Both the position numbers and the translations under genes were made by a program. Below are positions 1 to 13,512 of a stretch of DNA of 14,648 nucleotides, in pieces. This DNA is from Campylobacterota bacterium (lineage in GTDB: Bacteria; Campylobacterota; Campylobacteria; Campylobacterales; Sulfurovaceae): NCBI GenBank assembly GCA_003646505.1, contig QMKT01000026.1, forward strand, positions 1 through 14,648, in the 5' to 3' direction. The stretch's first letter is position 1; each line of letters starts with the position of its first letter. The notes under the pieces were generated by a model, which had not been told where the DNA came from, searched no databases, and was given only the letters and a program-made list of their open reading frames with translations.

Positions 1-3000
1 ATGAACTGGCATCGTTATTATAAGGTAAAGCATACTCAGCTTTACCTGCTACATAATAACCATTCTTAGGATGAAGTTTAGAATCTCTGGCATCATAGGA
101 GAATTCAAGAAACGGACCGGTTAAAAGATAGTTTCCCAATGAGAGCGTATGTATTGGGGTGAATTTATCCTTATTATTGGATGATAGATCAATATGCTCT
201 AAAGCTATCCCTGCTTTTAGGCTTAATTTTTCATCATTATAATCCAAGCTAGCCTCAGCATAGACTTTCTCTTCTTTGAAACCTGTATAGGTGAAGTGAC
301 TGTAACCGATCTTACTGGTGAGATCTATATAATGATCCAAAAAATTAAACTTGGCTGGTACAAAATAGCTTACTTCTGCAACCTTATATATGCTGGAGTA
401 TCCTAAATGTAAGCCAATTTGTTTAGCATTTCCCCTAAAGTTTGTTCGTACAGCATCCGCAGATACACTGAATCCTGTCTCAGTGTTAAAATTCAAACCA
501 CCTTTAAAGTACCAGGGTCTTGAGATCTCTCTTCCTTCTATCTCTATAGGTATGACATTATGAAGATTTTTATCATACTTCACAGAAACAAAATCAAATG
601 CGCCCAGACCATACAGTGCATCATAACTCTCCTTGATCCTCTTTAGACTAAAACGCTCTCCTTCACGGATTCTAACTCTGGAAAGCACCACAGAATCATC
701 TATGGTTTTTAATCCTTTTACAGTCACTTTTCCAAAAGTACAGACATCCCCTTTATTCAATGTGTATTTTATCTTTACTTCATATTTATCTATGTCCACA
801 TAGGCCTTACTGTCAAGTACATAGCTACAATAACCGTCATTCAATAATCTTTGACCAATAGTACGCTTGATAGAGCTAAACGCTTTTGCTTTAAAAATAT
901 CATTCTTTTTAAATGTGATCAGATCAGCAATATCATGATCACTGCTTATTTTTATCTCTCTGATCTTAATGGGTTTATTTTCATCAATTTTTACAGCAAC
1001 GTTTGTTTTTGACGTTTTGATCGAAAACTCGGCATCATAAAACCCCTCAGAGATATAATAATTTCGAAGAGATTCTTCCAGTGCAGGCAAGAGCTTGTCT
1101 TTTATCTTAGGTTTATCCTTTTTCCAAAATTGGACTATACTTTTTGTATCAACAGCCATTGCTTTTTGAAGATGACTTTCTTTCACATGCTCCTGTCCTG
1201 TGAACTTTATCTCATGAGAAGGAATACCATTCTTGTCTTCTTTACTAAAAAAGGTGAAAAATGCTTTTTTTGTCTTATTGATATCATTTGACTTACCGAT
1301 GAAAGGGAGGGCATCAATATTTATTCCAAGTGTTGAAAAAACTGTATTTACCACAGTCTCTCCTGCATTGGAGAGAATGGACTTGACTACATTACCATCC
1401 GTCATGGTTTGTTTTTCCTCTTCGCTATATTCACTTGCATTCGCAGCAGGGTTGAAAAGGATCGATGTAAGTATCTCATCTTTGCTCATGTATGGTATGG
1501 AAGAGAGAACAATCTCCGGTGCCGTTAAACTTCCTGCTATTTGTATGTTTATTTCTGCCTTGACTGTGTTATATCCGGCAGATATATTAAGCATAGGTTC
1601 TGTTGGATCTCCGGTAAACTCTATGATACTTTTTTTGAAAACAAATTTTTTATTTTCAATTTTATAAGATGAACCTTTGAGAATTTCAATTATTCCCAAG
1701 ACAGATATAGGTCCATTAGCTTCTTTTTTGATCAATAGCTCAGTTTTTGCTTTAATATCTGCTTCATCCGTTTTATACAGAAGAGGACTTTCGGTATTGA
1801 CTTTAATAGAGGTGGCTAAATTGTCCATAAAAGGGCTTGGTTTCTTTTTTTCTATCTCTTGAACAATAATAATATCTTTGTCCCTTGAAAAACTCTTTTT
1901 ATCCATGTCATAATAGACATTTCCACCCATGATTGTGATCGTACCATCAATCGTTGTATTATTGCCCTCTATATTACTTTTTATGTTGATACGGCTGAGC
2001 AGATCAGTCATCTCATGAGATACAACAAGAGGGTCTGCATACCCAAGGATCTCTCCCTTTTTGTTCTCAATGTCATATTTGCCTGTAACCTTTAATTCAT
2101 CATTGATCCAGAGGGGGGAAACATCTACATTACCCTCCTTCACATTGATCTGTGATGCTTTTGTAGCAAATACTTTTTGTCCTTGAAAAGTAGTATGGTA
2201 TTTATTCAAAGTCAAAGCAGAATCAACAAAAGCCAGGGAGATCATTGTATCGGTCAAGATATGTTCTGTTTCTTTATCCACCTCGTAAGTCAAAGTATGG
2301 GAATTGAGTTTTAACTCTAGATCTCTCATCTCAGTCAACACGATAGAGACTTTAGCATCTCCATCCAAGGGTGGTACCTCAAAAGCATACATAGTATTTA
2401 TCTGATGTAATAGGCTTTGTAATGAAGGTATATTTTTATCAAGTGTGATCTTTTTCTCTACATTCCCTTTAAATACAAACTTGGCAGCACCTAAAATAAG
2501 ATCACCCTCAAGATTTTTGTTATCTGAATTAAAATTAACTTTAGAGGTAAACCCGTTAGATGTCACGTCAACATGTACTTTATTCTCAGCCAATAAAATA
2601 TCAGTCCGCAATGGACTAAGCGTATCAAAGTTCAACGCTTTATTATACGCTCGAAGAAGTGATTTTTGAGGGACAATGGTTCTTGTTATGATCTTCAACT
2701 TTTCATCATAAAGCAGATCCGCATCTACATTGGCAAGATTTGAAGTGATCTTTGCTTTTGCATGAAGTGGGGTGAAATTAGCAAAATCCAAGGGAACGTG
2801 AATGTCCACTTCGGCTTGAGAAGTCTGAAGTTCTGTCGGAAGTGAAAACATCTCCTTAATCATAAGTGCTTGTTTCGTTGAAATAGTGAGGTCACCCTTC
2901 TTAAAGTCCGTAGAAATAAATTTCCCTTCTACATTATCAGAATCTATGAGCCCTTCAATACTTTTTGCATTACCATGGTAAGTGACTGTTAGATCATTCA

Positions 3001-4687
3001 GAGCTTTAGTATAATTTGTATCGATTCCCTCAAGATTCCCTAGCCTCACCTTACCTTTATAGTCAAGGAGACCATCTTCCAGAGTTAAAAGGTTGGTAAG
3101 ATGAATATCCTTGGCATAAGGTATCGAAATATTCCCTTCATTTTCAACGATAAGTTTACCTTTTGGAATCAAATATGTAATATGATTATTTAATGAAATA
3201 TCTTCAACATTGAATTCACCATCATGCACTTGAAGTATCTCCTTTCCCTTGAACTCCATATCAATTATTATCTGCTTTTCGTCTGTATGCATGGTCAGAG
3301 GAATCGTATCAAAGGCATCCTCTTTCAAAGGTAGTCCATATGTTTCAAAGAGTGCTTTGTGTGCTGTAATATCTCCCTGAGAAATGATATGGTTATCTTT
3401 GATCACCCCATGCTGTACAAAGGATGCAAAACTGCTTACAACAGCAACATCCACATTTCCAGTCTCTGCAGTTAAAGTACCGATATCCAACATGACATTC
3501 GTCGCATTTACTTCAGCACTCTGGATCAAAAGAGGATCATATGTCACACCCTTTATCGAAGAGTCCATGTGCTTTATATAAAGTAACTTTGGTAATAAAG
3601 TGTTAGGTGAATTGGTTTGTGCTACTTTGGGTTCCGCAGATTCCACTGTAGAGGTTTGATTATTTTCCAGTGATACTAGAAACTTTTTCAAAGCCATCGT
3701 ATCTATATCTTCTAACGATAAGGACTCAACCGTGATCTTTTCATTCTCTAGATTGCCATTCGTGGAGAGTTTAAAAAGATTACTCTCCATAAGCACATAG
3801 AGATCAGATAATTGAATCGTATCGGGATGAAGATCTATCATCCCATAGATATCAACATCTAACTCTTTTATATTTACCTCTCCCCGTTCGAGTCTTACCT
3901 GAGGATAAGTAGCAGGCTTAAGCGTTAAAACAACAGAGTCAACCCGTACACTTTGAGGGATAAAGTTATCTTTCCCTGCTTTATACTCTTCTATCTCAGG
4001 CTCTACTTTTTCTACGATCGCATCATCTATTTTGATAGCGATCATTTTCTTAATAACATCTTCAAATGCAATCGTATCGATATCAACGATACTGAGTTTT
4101 TTGATCCTGATCTTTTTCTCTTCTATCATCCCACGAAGCTGTATATTTGTGACATTGGTATCAATGACAAGAGAGAGGTCATCTATATTAATACCTTCTC
4201 CATAATAGACAATGCCCTCACCAGCCAATGCTATATGTTGAAATCCAATACCACTTTCATCAAAAGGCTTTACCGTTACATTGAATTCTCCCAAACCAAT
4301 AGTGACTGGCAGTATAAGGGTACTGTTATCTTCTTTTTTTTCATCTGTAGAAGCAAAAGTATCTACAACTTTTTTAATCTTTTCAACATTCAAACCATTG
4401 GCATGCAGGTGGGTAATAGAGATTTTATTGTAGAGGAGAGAAGCGGGATTCCAACCTAATTTCAGGCTATCAACCAATGTAGCATTTTTGAAAGTCAATG
4501 CTTCAACTTCAAGACCAGTAAGAAGACCACCAGAAATCTTTTTGTATCCAAATCCATATTGTGGAGCATAAGTATTTGCCACCCACTCTATGGTTTTCGT
4601 TGAGTTTAGTAAAAAGAATACTACGATAACACTAAGTGCGATCAACATGAGCAATGTATACCAAATGCGATCCCATACTATTTTCAT
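1..4687 (-). CDS. TamB-TamA fusion protein: membrane-anchored DUF490 body joined to POTRA domains and an Omp85 barrel (3' end outside window)
   Basis: The frame stays open from the ATG at 4687 to the window edge, giving at least 1562 residues. AGGAG lies about 10 nt before the ATG. Residues 8-27 form one hydrophobic helix after a basic start and lack a cleavage site, so it is probably a signal anchor. Residues about 29-1135 are a long beta-rich TamB/AsmA-type body. Its C-terminal part carries DUF490-like features: GDPTEP near 1026, and SSIPYMSKDEILTSILFN at about 1062-1079. After a short linker come three POTRA-like units, at about 1158-1238, 1239-1315 and 1316-1389. A barrel begins near 1390 and includes FSYDARDSKLHPKNGYY, an Omp85-type motif. 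In known TAM systems TamB spans the periplasm from the inner membrane and docks on the POTRAs of the separate outer-membrane protein TamA. Here both are one chain. No internal start with a ribosome site or signal peptide precedes the POTRAs. The likely role, inferred, is outer-membrane protein or lipid transport and assembly. Confidence 0.9.
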   Translation of the reverse strand, partial: MKIVWDRIWYTLLMLIALSVIVVFFLLNSTKTIEWVANTYAPQYGFGYKKISGGLLTGLEVEALTFKNATLVDSLKLGWNPASLLYNKISITHLHANGLNVEKIKKVVDTFASTDEKKEDNSTLILPVTIGLGEFNVTVKPFDESGIGFQHIALAGEGIVYYGEGINIDDLSLVIDTNVTNIQLRGMIEEKKIRIKKLSIVDIDTIAFEDVIKKMIAIKIDDAIVEKVEPEIEEYKAGKDNFIPQSVRVDSVVLTLKPATYPQVRLERGEVNIKELDVDIYGMIDLHPDTIQLSDLYVLMESNLFKLSTNGNLENEKITVESLSLEDIDTMALKKFLVSLENNQTSTVESAEPKVAQTNSPNTLLPKLLYIKHMDSSIKGVTYDPLLIQSAEVNATNVMLDIGTLTAETGNVDVAVVSSFASFVQHGVIKDNHIISQGDITAHKALFETYGLPLKEDAFDTIPLTMHTDEKQIIIDMEFKGKEILQVHDGEFNVEDISLNNHITYLIPKGKLIVENEGNISIPYAKDIHLTNLLTLEDGLLDYKGKVRLGNLEGIDTNYTKALNDLTVTYHGNAKSIEGLIDSDNVEGKFISTDFKKGDLTISTKQALMIKEMFSLPTELQTSQAEVDIHVPLDFANFTPLHAKAKITSNLANVDADLLYDEKLKIITRTIVPQKSLLRAYNKALNFDTLSPLRTDILLAENKVHVDVTSNGFTSKVNFNSDNKNLEGDLILGAAKFVFKGNVEKKITLDKNIPSLQSLLHQINTMYAFEVPPLDGDAKVSIVLTEMRDLELKLNSHTLTYEVDKETEHILTDTMISLAFVDSALTLNKYHTTFQGQKVFATKASQINVKEGNVDVSPLWINDELKVTGKYDIENKKGEILGYADPLVVSHEMTDLLSRINIKSNIEGNNTTIDGTITIMGGNVYYDMDKKSFSRDKDIIIVQEIEKKKPSPFMDNLATSIKVNTESPLLYKTDEADIKAKTELLIKKEANGPISVLGIIEILKGSSYKIENKKFVFKKSIIEFTGDPTEPMLNISAGYNTVKAEINIQIAGSLTAPEIVLSSIPYMSKDEILTSILFNPAANASEYSEEEKQTMTDGNVVKSILSNAGETVVNTVFSTLGINIDALPFIGKSNDINKTKKAFFTFFSKEDKNGIPSHEIKFTGQEHVKESHLQKAMAVDTKSIVQFWKKDKPKIKDKLLPALEESLRNYYISEGFYDAEFSIKTSKTNVAVKIDENKPIKIREIKISSDHDIADLITFKKNDIFKAKAFSSIKRTIGQRLLNDGYCSYVLDSKAYVDIDKYEVKIKYTLNKGDVCTFGKVTVKGLKTIDDSVVLSRVRIREGERFSLKRIKESYDALYGLGAFDFVSVKYDKNLHNVIPIEIEGREISRPWYFKGGLNFNTETGFSVSADAVRTNFRGNAKQIGLHLGYSSIYKVAEVSYFVPAKFNFLDHYIDLTSKIGYSHFTYTGFKEEKVYAEASLDYNDEKLSLKAGIALEHIDLSSNNKDKFTPIHTLSLGNYLLTGPFLEFSYDARDSKLHPKNGYYVAGKAEYALPYNNDASS
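3482..4162 (-). repeat. Diverged internal protein duplication in the TamB part (two units of about 105 residues)
   Basis: Residues about 176-280 and 298-402 of the fusion protein share an ordered pattern. Each begins with an Asn-Val or Asn-Leu beta segment. Next come KKLSIVDIDTIAFEDVIKKM in the first copy and ESLSLEDIDTMALKKFLVSL in the second. A variable acidic or Thr/Ser-rich linker follows. Each then has a strand series ending in VNIKELDVDI or VNATNVMLDI. The match is at protein level only, so the duplication is old. It fits growth of the TamB groove by repeat addition. Confidence 0.55.
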
Positions 4688-4742
4688 GTAGATTCTCCTC
4701 TCAAGATATATCTAAACGGTATTATTTGGTATTTTCTTTTTT

Positions 4743-9065: not shown

Positions 9066-9089
9066 AAAAAATTAAGGTATTTTACCTTA
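9066..9089 (-). terminator. Weak hairpin with T run after modC, possible partial terminator
   Basis: On the minus strand a 7-bp stem TAAGGTA / TACCTTA with an AAA loop (9073-9089) is followed by ATTTTTT (9066-9072). The modC stop codon lies inside the stem. The stem is AT-rich with only two G-C pairs, so it would be inefficient. It may reduce rather than stop transcription into the phnA-like gene. Confidence 0.35.
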
Positions 9090-9767
9090 TAAACTATAAG
9101 TAGTAGTAGTTACCTTTTGAAGTATCTTATCTTTGGCACCATCTTTAATCACTTTTCCCTGATCGAGTACAAGAATTCTGTCTGCTAAGGTATACGAAGC
9201 TTCCGTATCATGACTCACCATGATAGTGGTTGTACCGAACTCTTTATGTAGTTTTACTATCTCATTTTGAAGCTTCACTCTCATCTTAGCATCGAGTGAA
9301 GAAAGTGGCTCGTCCATAAGAAGAAGTTTTGGTTTGTTCATCATTGCGCGGCATAGACTTACTCTTTGTTTTTGACCGCCACTGAGGCTCTTAACATTAC
9401 GCGAGGCCAATTCATTTAACTCTGTAAGTGCAAGAAGCTTAAGGGCTAATGCTTTGTCATCCTTGACAAACAACAAATTTTGCTCTACGGTCATATTTTC
9501 AAACAATGCATAATCTTGAAATACAAAGCCTATCTGTCTTTCTTGGCAAGCAAGCATCTTTTTCTCACCCATCCAAAATACATTTTCAACCTCTATCTTT
9601 CCTTCGGCTTTTTCCAATCCTGCCAGAATTCTCAGCAGTGTTGTTTTCCCAGAACCACTCTCACCCATCAATGCGATGAACTCACCCTTTTGTATTTCTA
9701 ACTTTACATCAAGGTTCATCTCACCCTGACTGCCGTGCAAGACTTTATGTATATCTAGATGTATCAT
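9087..9767 (-). CDS. modC: Molybdate ABC transporter ATP-binding protein, short form without TOBE domain
   Basis: This 226-residue ABC ATPase energises oxyanion import through ModB. Visible are Walker A GESGSGKTT (35-43), Q-loop Gln84 in VFQDYALF, signature LSGGQ (128-132), Walker B LLLMDEP (148-154) and switch His186. E. coli ModC is about 350 residues and has a C-terminal molybdate-binding TOBE domain. This protein ends after the ATPase fold with Thr-rich VTTTTYSL, so that regulatory domain is missing. The start ATG shares one base with the modB stop (TAATG), implying translational coupling. Identification as ModC rests mainly on its neighbours, because the ATPase core alone would also fit other small-anion or sulfate transporters. 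Confidence 0.9.
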   Translation of the reverse strand: MIHLDIHKVLHGSQGEMNLDVKLEIQKGEFIALMGESGSGKTTLLRILAGLEKAEGKIEVENVFWMGEKKMLACQERQIGFVFQDYALFENMTVEQNLLFVKDDKALALKLLALTELNELASRNVKSLSGGQKQRVSLCRAMMNKPKLLLMDEPLSSLDAKMRVKLQNEIVKLHKEFGTTTIMVSHDTEASYTLADRILVLDQGKVIKDGAKDKILQKVTTTTYSL

Positions 9768-10441
9768 TAGAGTATACCTATCTTTTTTTGTTTGTGATTA
9801 AAAATATAGACAGCCATAAGTACCATAAAACTCATAAGTACCATAATAGCAGAGTAGATATGTGCTTGCCCGTACTCCATCACCTCAACCATCTCATAAA
9901 TGGCAACTGAGGCTACTTTAGTCTCCCCAGGTATGCTTCCTCCAACCATCAGTACCACACCAAATTCACCTACCGTATGTGCAAAAGTAATAATAAGTGC
10001 AGTGATAAGGGAAGGCTTGATGTTTGGAAGTGCCACATACCAGACCGTTTGCAGTTTAGATTTCCCTGCAAGATAGGAAGCTTCCAGCATATGTTTATTC
10101 AACGCTTCAAAACCACTCTGCAAAGGCTGTACCATAAAAGGCAGAGAGTAAAAACATGAAGCCACAACCAAACCGGTAAAGGTGAACACCAACTTCACAC
10201 CAAAAAGATCTTCAAAAAATCCTCCCACAGCCGAGTTGGGAGAGAGTACGATCAAAATATAAAAACCCAATACAGAAGGAGGAAGAACAATGGGAAGTGC
10301 TGTCAATGCTTCCAAGACTGGTTTGGATCTTGATTCTGTTTGAGACAGATACCATGACAAAGGCAGAGCGATCACAAATAAAATAAGTGTCGTCACACCT
10401 GCCAGTTTAAAAGAGAGTAAAAACGGTCCTAGGTCGATCAT
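9767..10441 (-). CDS. modB: Molybdate ABC transporter permease
   Basis: This 224-residue inner-membrane protein has about five hydrophobic helices (near 8-31, 47-67, 84-104, 143-168 and 197-214). [14 protein letters not shown] (48-61) is typical of ModB. The cytoplasmic EAA loop, which docks to the ATPase, is seen as [20 protein letters not shown] (120-139). [12 protein letters not shown] follows (157-168). Its ATG overlaps the modA stop by 4 nt (ATGA) and its stop overlaps the modC start by 1 nt. It should form the homodimeric channel that receives anion from ModA. Confidence 0.95.
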
Positions 10442-11184
10442 AAGACTTTGTATCCAAACGATTTCAAGATCTCTTTAGCCTTTTGGCTTAACATAAAATC
10501 ATAAAAAGCCTTCACCTCAACATTTCCTTCACCCCTCTTCAAAATGGCCATCCCCTGATCAATAGGTGTATAAAGATCTTCATCTATATCAGCCCAGTGT
10601 ATCGCCTCTTTAAAATGTGCCATTTTCGGTGAATAAAGTGATGATTTGGCAATGATACCTATGTCTGCGGCGGTTGTCGCATACGTGATGGTCTGAGAAA
10701 TAGACTCACCATACACAAATTTTTCTTTCAACTTTTCATAAAGTCTTGCATTTTTCAAAGCCTCTACTGCGGCCACACCATAAGGAGCAGTTTTAGGGTT
10801 GGCTATGGCGATCTTTTTGACATTTGCTGACTTAAGGACGTACATTTCCGCACAGTAGTTACGTTCTTTGACAGAAAGAATAGCCAATGCCCCCTGTGCA
10901 TAGATCACAGGTACGGTTATTGCCATTTTCTCTTTGTAGAGTGCATCAGGATACTTCATATTGGCTGACAGCAAAAGATCATAAGGTGCACCATGTTTTA
11001 TCTGTGCAGTAAGTTTTCCCGAAGACCCAAGTATAACATTAACTTTTGTTTCAGGATGTTCCAATTTAAACTCTTTTTTTAAGGATTCTATGGCATAGCT
11101 TACATTTGCAGCTACAGCAATGCTGATCTCTCCTGCACTGACACTCGCCAGTCCAAACAGACATGCAATGATTATCTTTTTCAT
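10438..11184 (-). CDS. modA: Periplasmic molybdate-binding protein
   Basis: This 248-residue solute-binding protein carries a signal peptide (about 1-18, cleavage likely after VSAG). ModA features are [13 protein letters not shown] (23-35), [10 protein letters not shown] (53-62), [10 protein letters not shown] (65-74) and [15 protein letters not shown] (129-143). They place Ser and backbone groups around the tetrahedral oxyanion in known ModA structures. Tungstate would bind similarly, so which ion is physiological is open. There is no lipobox, so the protein is probably soluble in the periplasm. The ATG follows the porin stop by 9 nt, and the TAGGA containing that stop serves as ribosome site. 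It delivers the ligand to ModB. Confidence 0.95.
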
Positions 11185-11193
11185 GCCAACGTC

Positions 11194-12729
11194 CTAAAAC
11201 AGATAATTGATCTCAATACGAACCTCATTATAAGAGGGGTCAAGCTTAGTGAAGCCATTACTCGTGATCGTATCATCATCTCCTACAACATGGGCAAATC
11301 TTGTTTTTAAATAGTAAGATGTTTCTCCAAGCCCTTTAAGAAAGTCGATCGTAAAAACATTTGAATCTGCCTGTACCCCTATCTTCTCATCATCAAAATC
11401 CTGTATGGCAAAACGTGATATGATCTTAAAGTCAGAGACATTATCAAACTTATAATCAAGTTGCATCATATAACTTTCTGTGTTGGCACACCAATTATAC
11501 TGTGACATGGCACGTGTAAATCCAGCCGTAGGAAAACCTCTCCATGGTGCCACTATGTCACCTTCATCAGATATCTGAGTATAGGCAAATCGTAATTTAA
11601 AGGCATCTTGGACCACATCCACTCTTGCAGCATAAAGAGCCGCATCTAAACTATCTGGATCACTATAACCTTGCGTAAGTGTTTTAAGGTTCGCACCCCC
11701 TATTTCGCCTGCTCCATCATCAAACTGCTGCATATATCTGAGTGCTGGTATCACTGACCATCCACCCACATCCATTCTATAATCAACTTGTATCATGGCA
11801 GAAGAGACCAACTCAGGTACTGCAGTATAGTTCATGTTTATCGTCAAGTTGTCTATACTTCTATTTTTAGCCTCTGCTACGATCAATTTATCATCAATAC
11901 CTCTGGCTTCCAATTCAGATTTTTTCAAACCAAAATGCATGGCAGCATCATCATTCTCACTATAGAGGTTATAAGGGTCATTATCCAGATCACCTGCTGC
12001 CAAGACATGATGAAAATCAGAGTGGTCCCTTAATTTTTGACTTATTAAATATGCCATATTGAATGAAGTGTCATACATTGATGAGCTGTTGATAGTAAGC
12101 CCTTCAAAGGTATTGGGTATCATTTTTGTATCATTACTTTTAGTTAAAAAACTCTCAAATACCTGTCGTCCTACTTTGATATTAATCTTTTCATGTCTAT
12201 ATTCCAAATAGGCTTGTGCCAAAGAATAGAGATTTGCAGAACCATTCCTGCCATAGTCATATCGATTGAAGACACCTTTTCCTGCTTTATATAAATAGGC
12301 TTCTGATTCATCGAGACTACCTGCAGCACTGCTAACATAAAGTCCCCCACCTACAGAAAACCCATTCAGGCACCCAGATCTATAGATCAAGCTCCCACCT
12401 ATCGCTGCGATGGCATGGTTTTCTCTTACTTTAACATCATTTACAGCAACTTCATTCTTCCATCTATGCCCAAAGCTGTTAAAACGTACACGTTTATAAA
12501 ATATCCCTTGAGTGAGCATATCTCTAATATTATCTACATTTCCAGGGTCTTCATTATACGTTTGAAACATATTACACCGAATACTATGTTTTACAGCATC
12601 TTCCATTTCAAGCATATCGTCCACTGTGTATACTGTTCTAACGGTATCTACTACTTCAACAGTATCTTCCATCGCGTATACTGTACCTAGTAACGCTATC
12701 CAGAGCCATCCTGATCTTAATACTCTCAC
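11194..12729 (-). CDS. OprD-like outer-membrane porin within the molybdate operon
   Basis: The 511 residues begin with a signal peptide (about 1-19, ending TVYA). A beta-barrel pattern ends in SYNEVRIEINYLF, with the terminal Phe of outer-membrane barrels. OprD-like signatures are IGGSLIYRSGCLNGFSVGGG, KVGRQVFESF followed by DTKMIPNTFEGLTI, and PWRGFPTAGFTRAM. OprD porins let small solutes through the outer membrane. Position between modE and modA suggests this one serves molybdate or tungstate (inference). The start is GTG at 12729, 3 nt after the modE stop, with only a weak GGGA upstream, so translation is probably coupled to modE. The next Met, residue 20, would lose the signal peptide. 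Three Cys in the mature part are unusual for a porin. A run of TV triplets follows the signal peptide. Confidence 0.82.
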   Translation of the reverse strand: MRVLRSGWLWIALLGTVYAMEDTVEVVDTVRTVYTVDDMLEMEDAVKHSIRCNMFQTYNEDPGNVDNIRDMLTQGIFYKRVRFNSFGHRWKNEVAVNDVKVRENHAIAAIGGSLIYRSGCLNGFSVGGGLYVSSAAGSLDESEAYLYKAGKGVFNRYDYGRNGSANLYSLAQAYLEYRHEKINIKVGRQVFESFLTKSNDTKMIPNTFEGLTINSSSMYDTSFNMAYLISQKLRDHSDFHHVLAAGDLDNDPYNLYSENDDAAMHFGLKKSELEARGIDDKLIVAEAKNRSIDNLTINMNYTAVPELVSSAMIQVDYRMDVGGWSVIPALRYMQQFDDGAGEIGGANLKTLTQGYSDPDSLDAALYAARVDVVQDAFKLRFAYTQISDEGDIVAPWRGFPTAGFTRAMSQYNWCANTESYMMQLDYKFDNVSDFKIISRFAIQDFDDEKIGVQADSNVFTIDFLKGLGETSYYLKTRFAHVVGDDDTITSNGFTKLDPSYNEVRIEINYLF

Positions 12730-12732
12730 TCT

Positions 12733-13512
12733 CTATTTTCCCAACATAATATTATTTGCTTTTATAGTGATCCAAACAAGATCCCCTACTTTCATTTTCA
12801 TATTTTCTAACATCTCTTTGGATATCACAGAAACGATCTTGTCATGACTTCCTATATCTATCAATACCTTGGCATTTTCAAGATCTGTATCTATCTTTTC
12901 AACGATACCTTCGAGTCTATTTTTTTCAAATTTATCATCACTCATTTCAGAGAGTAAAACTGCAGATGATTTAAAGATCACCGTCACGTACTGATCTTTT
13001 TCTATATGCAGATTTTCTACAGCTTCTTTTGTAATGACTGAAACCAGTACCTGTCCGCTTTTCAACTCTAAATGTATCTTTGCATTTACATTTTCACATT
13101 CAATAGAAACAACCTTGGCTCGCATCTGATTTCGGGCAGAGATCTGTAAAGAAAGTCTTTCTATAGTCTTAAATGTACCACTTTGGATATCAGTCAATGC
13201 GGATAATCTTTCTAAAAAATGTGTATGTTCTCTTTTAAGCATTGCATAGTTTTCAAGCAATTGTCTACCATAAGTCGTGATCGTAGTACCGCCACCATCT
13301 TTTCCACCAGTCTCTCGACACACAATGGGTTCTGGTGAGAGAGAGTTCATCGTATCTACTGCTTCCCATGCACTCTTATAACTCATGGGTACTGCCTTTG
13401 CCGCCTTTGAAATAGACCCCTGTTCTTCTATGGCATGTAAAAGTGATATACGCTTCTCAAGTAAAAAAGGTTGACCTAACATTTCTAAAGTAAGTGGCGA
13501 TGAAAGTTCCAT
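12733..13512 (-). CDS. modE: ModE-family molybdate-responsive regulator with two TOBE domains
   Basis: This 259-residue protein has an N-terminal winged helix with GSISKAAKAVPMSYKSAWEAV (split by the HTH turn, 32-52) and the wing ETGGKDGGGTTIT (67-79), both typical of ModE. The linker has SARNQ (125-129), the start of the first molybdate-binding TOBE/Mop domain (about 125-187). A second TOBE domain follows (about 198-258), with the repeated pattern VxVSVISKEMLENM. In E. coli, ModE dimers loaded with molybdate repress modABC. Here modE is the first gene of the operon. It is preceded by two dyads of ModE-operator type, so autorepression of the whole operon is likely (inference). AAGGA lies upstream of the ATG inside the proximal dyad. 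Confidence 0.94.
   Translation of the reverse strand: MELSSPLTLEMLGQPFLLEKRISLLHAIEEQGSISKAAKAVPMSYKSAWEAVDTMNSLSPEPIVCRETGGKDGGGTTITTYGRQLLENYAMLKREHTHFLERLSALTDIQSGTFKTIERLSLQISARNQMRAKVVSIECENVNAKIHLELKSGQVLVSVITKEAVENLHIEKDQYVTVIFKSSAVLLSEMSDDKFEKNRLEGIVEKIDTDLENAKVLIDIGSHDKIVSVISKEMLENMKMKVGDLVWITIKANNIMLGK

Follow-up and report, generated by a model that had tools for sequence, protein, structure and literature searches.

A TamB-TamA fusion protein encoded in one reading frame, beside separate tamA and tamB genes, in Campylobacterota

Can TamB and TamA, the two proteins of the translocation and assembly module (TAM), be made as a single chain? This question is raised by a 14,648-base stretch of DNA from a marine sulfur bacterium (Campylobacterota, family Sulfurovaceae), which we call the window and which is the entire contig C26 (QMKT01000026.1) of the source genome (G000, assembly GCA_003646505.1; 142 contigs, about 80% complete). 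On its minus strand an open reading frame (2..4687) proceeds from an ATG for 1562 amino acids without a stop and runs off the window end. As the window spans the whole contig, the absence of the barrel end is due to the end of the assembly, and the missing part was not found on any other contig of the source genome in a search at E up to 1e-30. An initial annotation of this frame, made from the sequence alone, had read it as TamB and TamA fused in one stop-free frame, and this reading is borne out by independent relatives as well as by a single phylogenetic origin. Among 60 related genomes searched, that of Sulfurovum sp. NORP77 (G011, contig C27, NVUY01000029) has a single frame that matches residues 5-1561 at 56%. 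It has 1706 codons from a TTG and a complete barrel, and the corresponding database protein (P0002) begins five codons later. The Omp85 half of this protein was used as query for a database search in which only proteins of 938 residues or more could be returned. The 45 matches comprise 37 proteins of this fused type (P0002-P0038, including that of the window), 7 far fusions and 1 protein without TamB. All 37 have Pfam matches to TamB and POTRA, and 35 to Omp85 (the other two are cut short). They have a common layout and a recognisable linker; the longest 14 have 1701-1721 residues, some with an intact N-terminus about 1470-1570, and one of 1719 residues (P0016) comes from Sulfurovum sp. CS9, where its contig has 2.9 Mb. 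It may be suspected that the frame is an assembly or sequencing chimera of adjacent tamB and tamA genes, as the window is a single contig from a fragmentary assembly. Yet the junction is common to independent assemblies, and the usual gene order is tamA then tamB, because of which the order TamB-TamA needs more than a lost stop codon. With the full-length frame in G011 and the 37 database proteins an assembly artefact is ruled out, and we give a chimera practically no credence. The fusion of TamB and TamA in a single frame is confirmed.

The two halves were compared with what is known of each family. TamB is described as having a long beta-stranded body and a conserved TamB/DUF490 domain (Heinz 2015, PMC4494059). 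The N-terminal hydrophobic stretch of the window protein (Table 1) fits the TamB signal anchor, the TamB/DUF490 domain is present, yet only to profile position 299 of 381, and a long beta-stranded body of the groove type is predicted, with a strand ladder at residues 17-456 of P0031 and 851-1064 of the window protein. The separate TamB of genome G030 aligns to residues 3-1112 at 35% identity. It may be noted that the predicted models cover P0031 and residues 851-1562 of the window protein, and that fold searches used the first model only; their matches are mostly to the Omp85 half, the groove half being barely compared with solved folds, and the best solved TamB chain by sequence (23sp_B, E 0.27) is not significant. 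Groove length varies in the family, the fused-type TamB of genome G072 (L066, contig C201) being without about 210 groove residues (window residues about 436-644). The Omp85 half has the three POTRA domains and the 16-strand Omp85 barrel of a TamA. By sequence it is kin to TamA rather than to BamA: it groups in the tree with the TamAs of the genus, to which it has mostly 41-56% identity, and the source genome's own BamA-like protein is a different gene with 22% identity. BamA identity was rejected, since the NCBIfam BamA model gives 128 bits against a cut-off of 297 and the tree puts this half with TamA. A TamA is also a separate protein with its own signal peptide, which this half is not. Further, the hybrid barrel formed by the last strand of TamB and beta-1 of TamA is not to be expected here, as that strand is not encoded in cis; pairing in trans with the genome's other TamB is possible. 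As the fused protein thus departs from the known families, we do not class it as an ordinary TamB or TamA but name it a TAM-derived single-chain variant.

Table 1. The fused gene, its ribosome-binding site and the parts of its product, in window coordinates
Feature	Position	Strand	Basis
Fused TamB-TamA gene	2..4687	-	1562 codons present
Shine-Dalgarno GAGAGGAGA ahead of the ATG	4694..4702	-	read from sequence; strong
N-terminal signal-anchor helix, residues 8-27	4607..4666	-	19-residue Kyte-Doolittle maximum 2.67 within the first 60 residues
TamB periplasmic groove, residues 28-1077	1457..4606	-	matches separate TamBs; beta-strand ladder in model
Pfam TamB (PF04357), residues 902-1123	1319..1984	-	E 3.5e-22; profile positions 56-299 of 381, profile end missing
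Low-confidence tether, residues 1078-1154 (probably flexible)	1226..1456	-	pLDDT (predicted local distance difference test) <50 at residues 228-304 of the model covering 851-1562
Tether part like the mature N-terminus of TamA, residues 1134-1156	1220..1288	-	moderate support only
Three TamA POTRA domains, residues 1157-1389	521..1219	-	Pfam POTRA (3 stretches), model
First part of Omp85/TamA barrel, residues 1390-1562	2..520	-	Pfam Omp85 at 1416-1558, model; rest beyond the contig

How the two halves are joined is the next question. The junction had been placed at 1200-1290, and rightly so, as sequence like the mature start of TamA is found from about residue 1134 (base 1288) and POTRA1 from about residue 1157 (base 1219). 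The TamA part was also said to have neither a signal peptide nor a ribosome site of its own. The former agrees with our results, since at the junction of the 37 proteins no stretch is hydrophobic enough to resemble a signal peptide (19-residue maximum 0.48-1.39). The latter is true of the ATG at residue 1177, which scores 2/6 to AGGAGG, but not of a GTG at residue 1112, which follows AGGAGA (5/6). At the counterpart of this GTG in G011 there is no start codon, and neighbouring start codons score at most 4/6. A separate TamA made from the internal GTG was rejected on account of this absence and because the product would be without a signal peptide. What is missing at the junction was determined from an alignment of 18 separate TamBs of the genus and 13 fused proteins out of the 37. 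Past the DxL motif each of the 18 separate TamBs has another 60-77 residues, which include a strand-like run; 7 of these proteins end in F and the others bear a short extra tail. In this alignment their C-terminal strands come after the counterpart of the helical first part of the tether. In 13 of 13 fused proteins these strands are absent, and the short linker and POTRA1 are found there instead. The reach of PF04357 was 378-381 of 381 profile positions in 4 of 4 unfused TamBs and 291, 292, 299 and 327 in four fused proteins, the last of which runs into POTRA1. In the E. coli TamAB structures determined by cryo-electron microscopy in 2026, TamB contacts POTRAs 1-3 and its last strand forms a pair with beta-1 of TamA, with strands 3-6 lying inside the barrel lumen; growth is greatly impaired by deletion of TamB beta-1 or alpha-2 (PMC12800296). 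The sequence comparison shows that the TamA signal peptide and the TamB end, some 60-75 residues including the strands that in E. coli engage the TamA barrel, are lost from the fused protein. This loss of TamB strands was missed by the initial annotation, which had pointed to a fixed 1:1 stoichiometry, and it weighs more for the mechanism. In place of the lost end, the linker part SDANKTKKALFSFFS resembles SDSNKTSYALFS, the mature N-terminus of unfused TamAs. On pairing 6 chosen fused proteins of the 37 with 2 unfused TamAs, shuffle p was <0.05 in 8 of the 12 pairs and not in 4, so that a derivation of the linker from the mature N-terminus of TamA is moderately supported.

To the suggestion that the fusion might be clade-wide the answer is no. 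A match to the TamA half at E up to 1e-30 is present in 70 of the 78 genomes of the genus, and a fused frame through the junction in only 2 (G000 and G011); two others (G072 and G064) have a TamB part of the fused type that is cut by contig ends. When 298 genomes were drawn evenly from the order, the TamA half found a match in 116 of them, and of the matched frames none but that of the window was longer than 1000 amino acids. A scan of named genomes gave 35 loci. On the counts of 2-4 of 78 in the genus and 1 of 298 in the order, the fused gene is rare and, in the sampled genomes, confined to the genus. A plasmid-borne gene was considered and rejected: 46 plasmid records match, none of which covers 80% of the query, and all have less than 60% identity. 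The source genome has on its contig C45 a separate TamA (593 amino acids, with a start like a signal peptide), after which a TamB begins, and a separate tamA-tamB pair was found in 4 of 4 genomes with a fused-type gene (G000, G011, G072 and G064). The fused protein is hence an extra TAM and not a replacement of the normal two-protein TAM. In genome G030 (L052, C6:201300-207200) the separate tamA is broken by stops and frame changes and tamB is intact, which is either a pseudogene or an assembly error. Rarity in the genus and possible redundancy with the separate TAM are what a decaying duplicate without function would lead one to expect. However, 37 divergent proteins retain the frame and the linker, and the terminal residue is Phe in 33 of the 33 complete ones; we regard decay as very unlikely.

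The phylogeny bears on how the fusion arose. In a tree of the TamA half (37 of 92 rows, plus L133) the 15 fused rows form one clade (100/100), joined by the unfused TamAs of L092, L106 and L133 (100/100), and the usual TamAs of the genus form another group (93/83). A tree of the TamB half, built from 40 of 85 rows with the G072 and G064 fragments among them (the bootstrap is rough), again puts the 17 fused rows in one clade (100/100), next to which come L092 with L103 and then L106. Quick trees of all 92 and 85 rows agree, with supports of 94-100 at these forks and 83 for L092 with L103. These groupings show a single fusion event in which both halves descend together from a tamA-tamB operon. 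The unfused sisters (L092, QMKU01000093; L106, DZAQ01000015; L103 and L133, of one genome) are the nearest kin, with TamA at about 60% and TamB at 41-57% identity. Unlike the fused protein they are encoded by two genes, tamA preceding tamB in L092 and L106 and the two lying on separate contigs in the L103/L133 genome, and they keep the TamB C-terminus. Their TamAs have a signal-peptide-like start in L106 and L133 (read by eye), this part being cut off in L092. In the TamA of L133 (G102:C54), also read by eye, there is a Cys (LLWC) at the likely end of the signal peptide, and this protein may, like TamL, be a lipoprotein. For L092, L103 and L106, no TAM other than the unfused pair was found in the genome (E up to 1e-20), and the genome of L106 appears from its contig number and coordinates to be G290, a member of another genus of the family. 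Because of this, the fused gene may have been acquired from a lineage of the unfused-sister type or may be an old paralogue.

A trace of the event may be present at the start of the fused gene. In L092 and L106 tamB starts with a TTG that overlaps the TGA of tamA. The TTG start of the fused gene, in G011, G072 and G064 alike, is overlapped in the same register by a decayed, stop-containing copy of the last dozen tamA codons (L090 7080-7118 in G011; at the fused start on the reverse strand in L066 and L067). Over 34 bases the identities to the L092 and L106 tails are 24 and 26 in G011, 26 and 25 in G072, and 22 and 23 in G064; in 1000 shuffles of each upstream region an equally good match was obtained 0, 0, 0, 0, 4 and 1 times, respectively. 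At the start of the window's fused gene, which has its own ribosome site, no such scar was found (16 and 17 of 34, not above shuffles). For three of the four loci we infer that the scar is what is left of a tamA that stood upstream after tandem duplication of tamAB, and that it probably still serves as the ribosome-binding site. The tamA-tamB pair would have been duplicated head to tail, a deletion would then have fused the tamB of copy 1 to the tamA of copy 2, and the tamA of copy 1 would have been lost save for its last codons, kept because the ribosome-binding site lies in them. As to neighbouring genes, a tRNA-Val (gac) gene lies upstream of the fused-type gene of G072 (L066 3212-3287, G072:C201), with neighbours unlike those in G011 and the window. 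The window itself has at 9087-13512 a set named from translations as a molybdate-type ABC transporter (ATPase, permease and binding protein), a porin-like protein and a ModE-like regulator.

Is such a fusion new? The view that known TAMs are two separate proteins needs to be qualified, since TamB-Omp85 fusions are plentiful in databases, chiefly from Acidobacteriota. A search with P0045 gave at least 107 matches, 106 with Pfam TamB and Omp85, and one with P0041 at least 378, with both domains in all of the 120 listed (rows read by eye); these counts are lower bounds as only candidates sharing most words were scored. The named organisms among the matches are all Acidobacteriota (Vicinamibacteria, Thermoanaerobaculia, Bryobacteraceae, or the phylum alone), and the type comprises P0040-P0046 and most of P0047-P0269, some auto-named BamA/TamB. 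As in the fused protein, a single chain carries TamB and, after it, POTRAs and an Omp85 barrel. The Acidobacteriota proteins (e.g. P0041, P0045) are, however, longer (mostly 2000-2440 amino acids) with 2 to 5 POTRA stretches; 2 of 3 tested have weak DUF748/YhdP matches below the Pfam cut-offs, and some of the proteins have weakly DUF748/YhdP-like N-termini; and most of the TamB end is retained ahead of the POTRAs, with the profile reaching 357-368 of 381 in each of the 3 tested. Descent from them was rejected, as the Omp85 half has 21-26% identity to theirs, whereas its identity to separate TamAs, those of the genus and of the unfused sisters, is mostly 41-61%; this identity comparison, made without a joint tree, points to a separate origin. 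In the text available from open-licence PMC papers, no description of TamB-TamA or Acidobacteriota fusions was found. The words 'fusion' and 'fused' are absent from the main text of Heinz 2015 (PMC4494059), the 2024 TAM review (PMC11014939), and the papers on the TamAB structure (PMC12800296), the Borrelia hybrid (PMC13382580) and TamL (PMC12045153); the text of Heinz and Lithgow 2014 (PMC4104836) has one such word, about a BamA-BamB-like protein. The BAM-TAM hybrid of Borrelia, as described in PMC13382580, is alike in that TamB is tied to an Omp85 partner, but the proteins are separate and the modelled TamB strands complete the BamA barrel, which is the part missing in the fused protein. With the E. 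coli TAM (PMC12800296) the fused protein shares the signal anchor, groove, TamB/DUF490 domain, three POTRAs and Omp85 barrel, and docking on POTRAs 1-2 is expected; it differs from that two-chain system in being one chain, with no TamA signal peptide and no TamB strands entering the barrel.

We consider it likely that the fused protein is a one-chain TAM working alongside the normal two-protein TAM, and from its sequence we infer that the chain stays uncut and sits in both membranes. Sec would insert it through the TamB anchor, which would stay in the inner membrane, the groove would thread across the periplasm, and the barrel assembly machinery (BAM) would fold the C-terminal barrel into the outer membrane. 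The groove end would dock on POTRAs 1-2 of its own chain, with the flexible tether of about 65-77 residues holding groove and barrel together. With the tether in place the strand plug (TamB beta-6 on TamA beta-1) would no longer be needed and the lateral gate would be unoccupied and available to substrates, the groove feeding phospholipid or unfolded barrels to it. A TAM role in the assembly of outer-membrane proteins or phospholipid is predicted. Alternatively, the chain may be made whole and then cleaved within the tether by a protease of the periplasm, which would leave TamB and TamA as subunits at 1:1. Such a cut would remove the difficulty of assembling a barrel that is tied to the inner membrane, and the tether is predicted to be disordered yet is conserved (0.617, against 0.655 for the groove). 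But there is no signal-peptide-like stretch at the junction, and with the TamB strands that engage the TamA barrel missing a cut pair would have nothing but POTRA contacts to hold it together; we hold cleavage to be unlikely. The protein could also be a lipid bridge without barrel insertion, in which the barrel merely holds the groove end in the outer membrane. The loss of the gate-engaging strands and the presence of a second, separate TAM left for other work favor this, as does phospholipid binding by the periplasmic part of E. coli TamB (PMC12800296). The POTRA and barrel columns are nevertheless the most conserved (0.70-0.75), above the needs of an anchor, which makes a bridge of this kind equally doubtful.

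An uncut one-chain TAM would be at once an inner-membrane-anchored protein and an outer-membrane beta-barrel spanning the periplasm, in which a covalent tether replaces the TamB strand plug; together with the Acidobacteriota fusions it would mean that a single-chain conduit for lipids or barrels evolved at least twice. We put the chances of this wider interpretation at about even. If it is true, nature has removed the TamA-TamB hybrid barrel while the complex stays together. What the TamB strands do in the barrel, whether holding, gate opening or lipid hand-over, is a question posed by the TamAB structures of 2026, and a strand-less covalent TAM set against the Acidobacteriota fusions, which keep most of that region, would separate these roles. 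The fused chain also asks how BAM folds a barrel whose N-terminus would still be tied to the inner membrane, and it would limit the span that one polypeptide must bridge.
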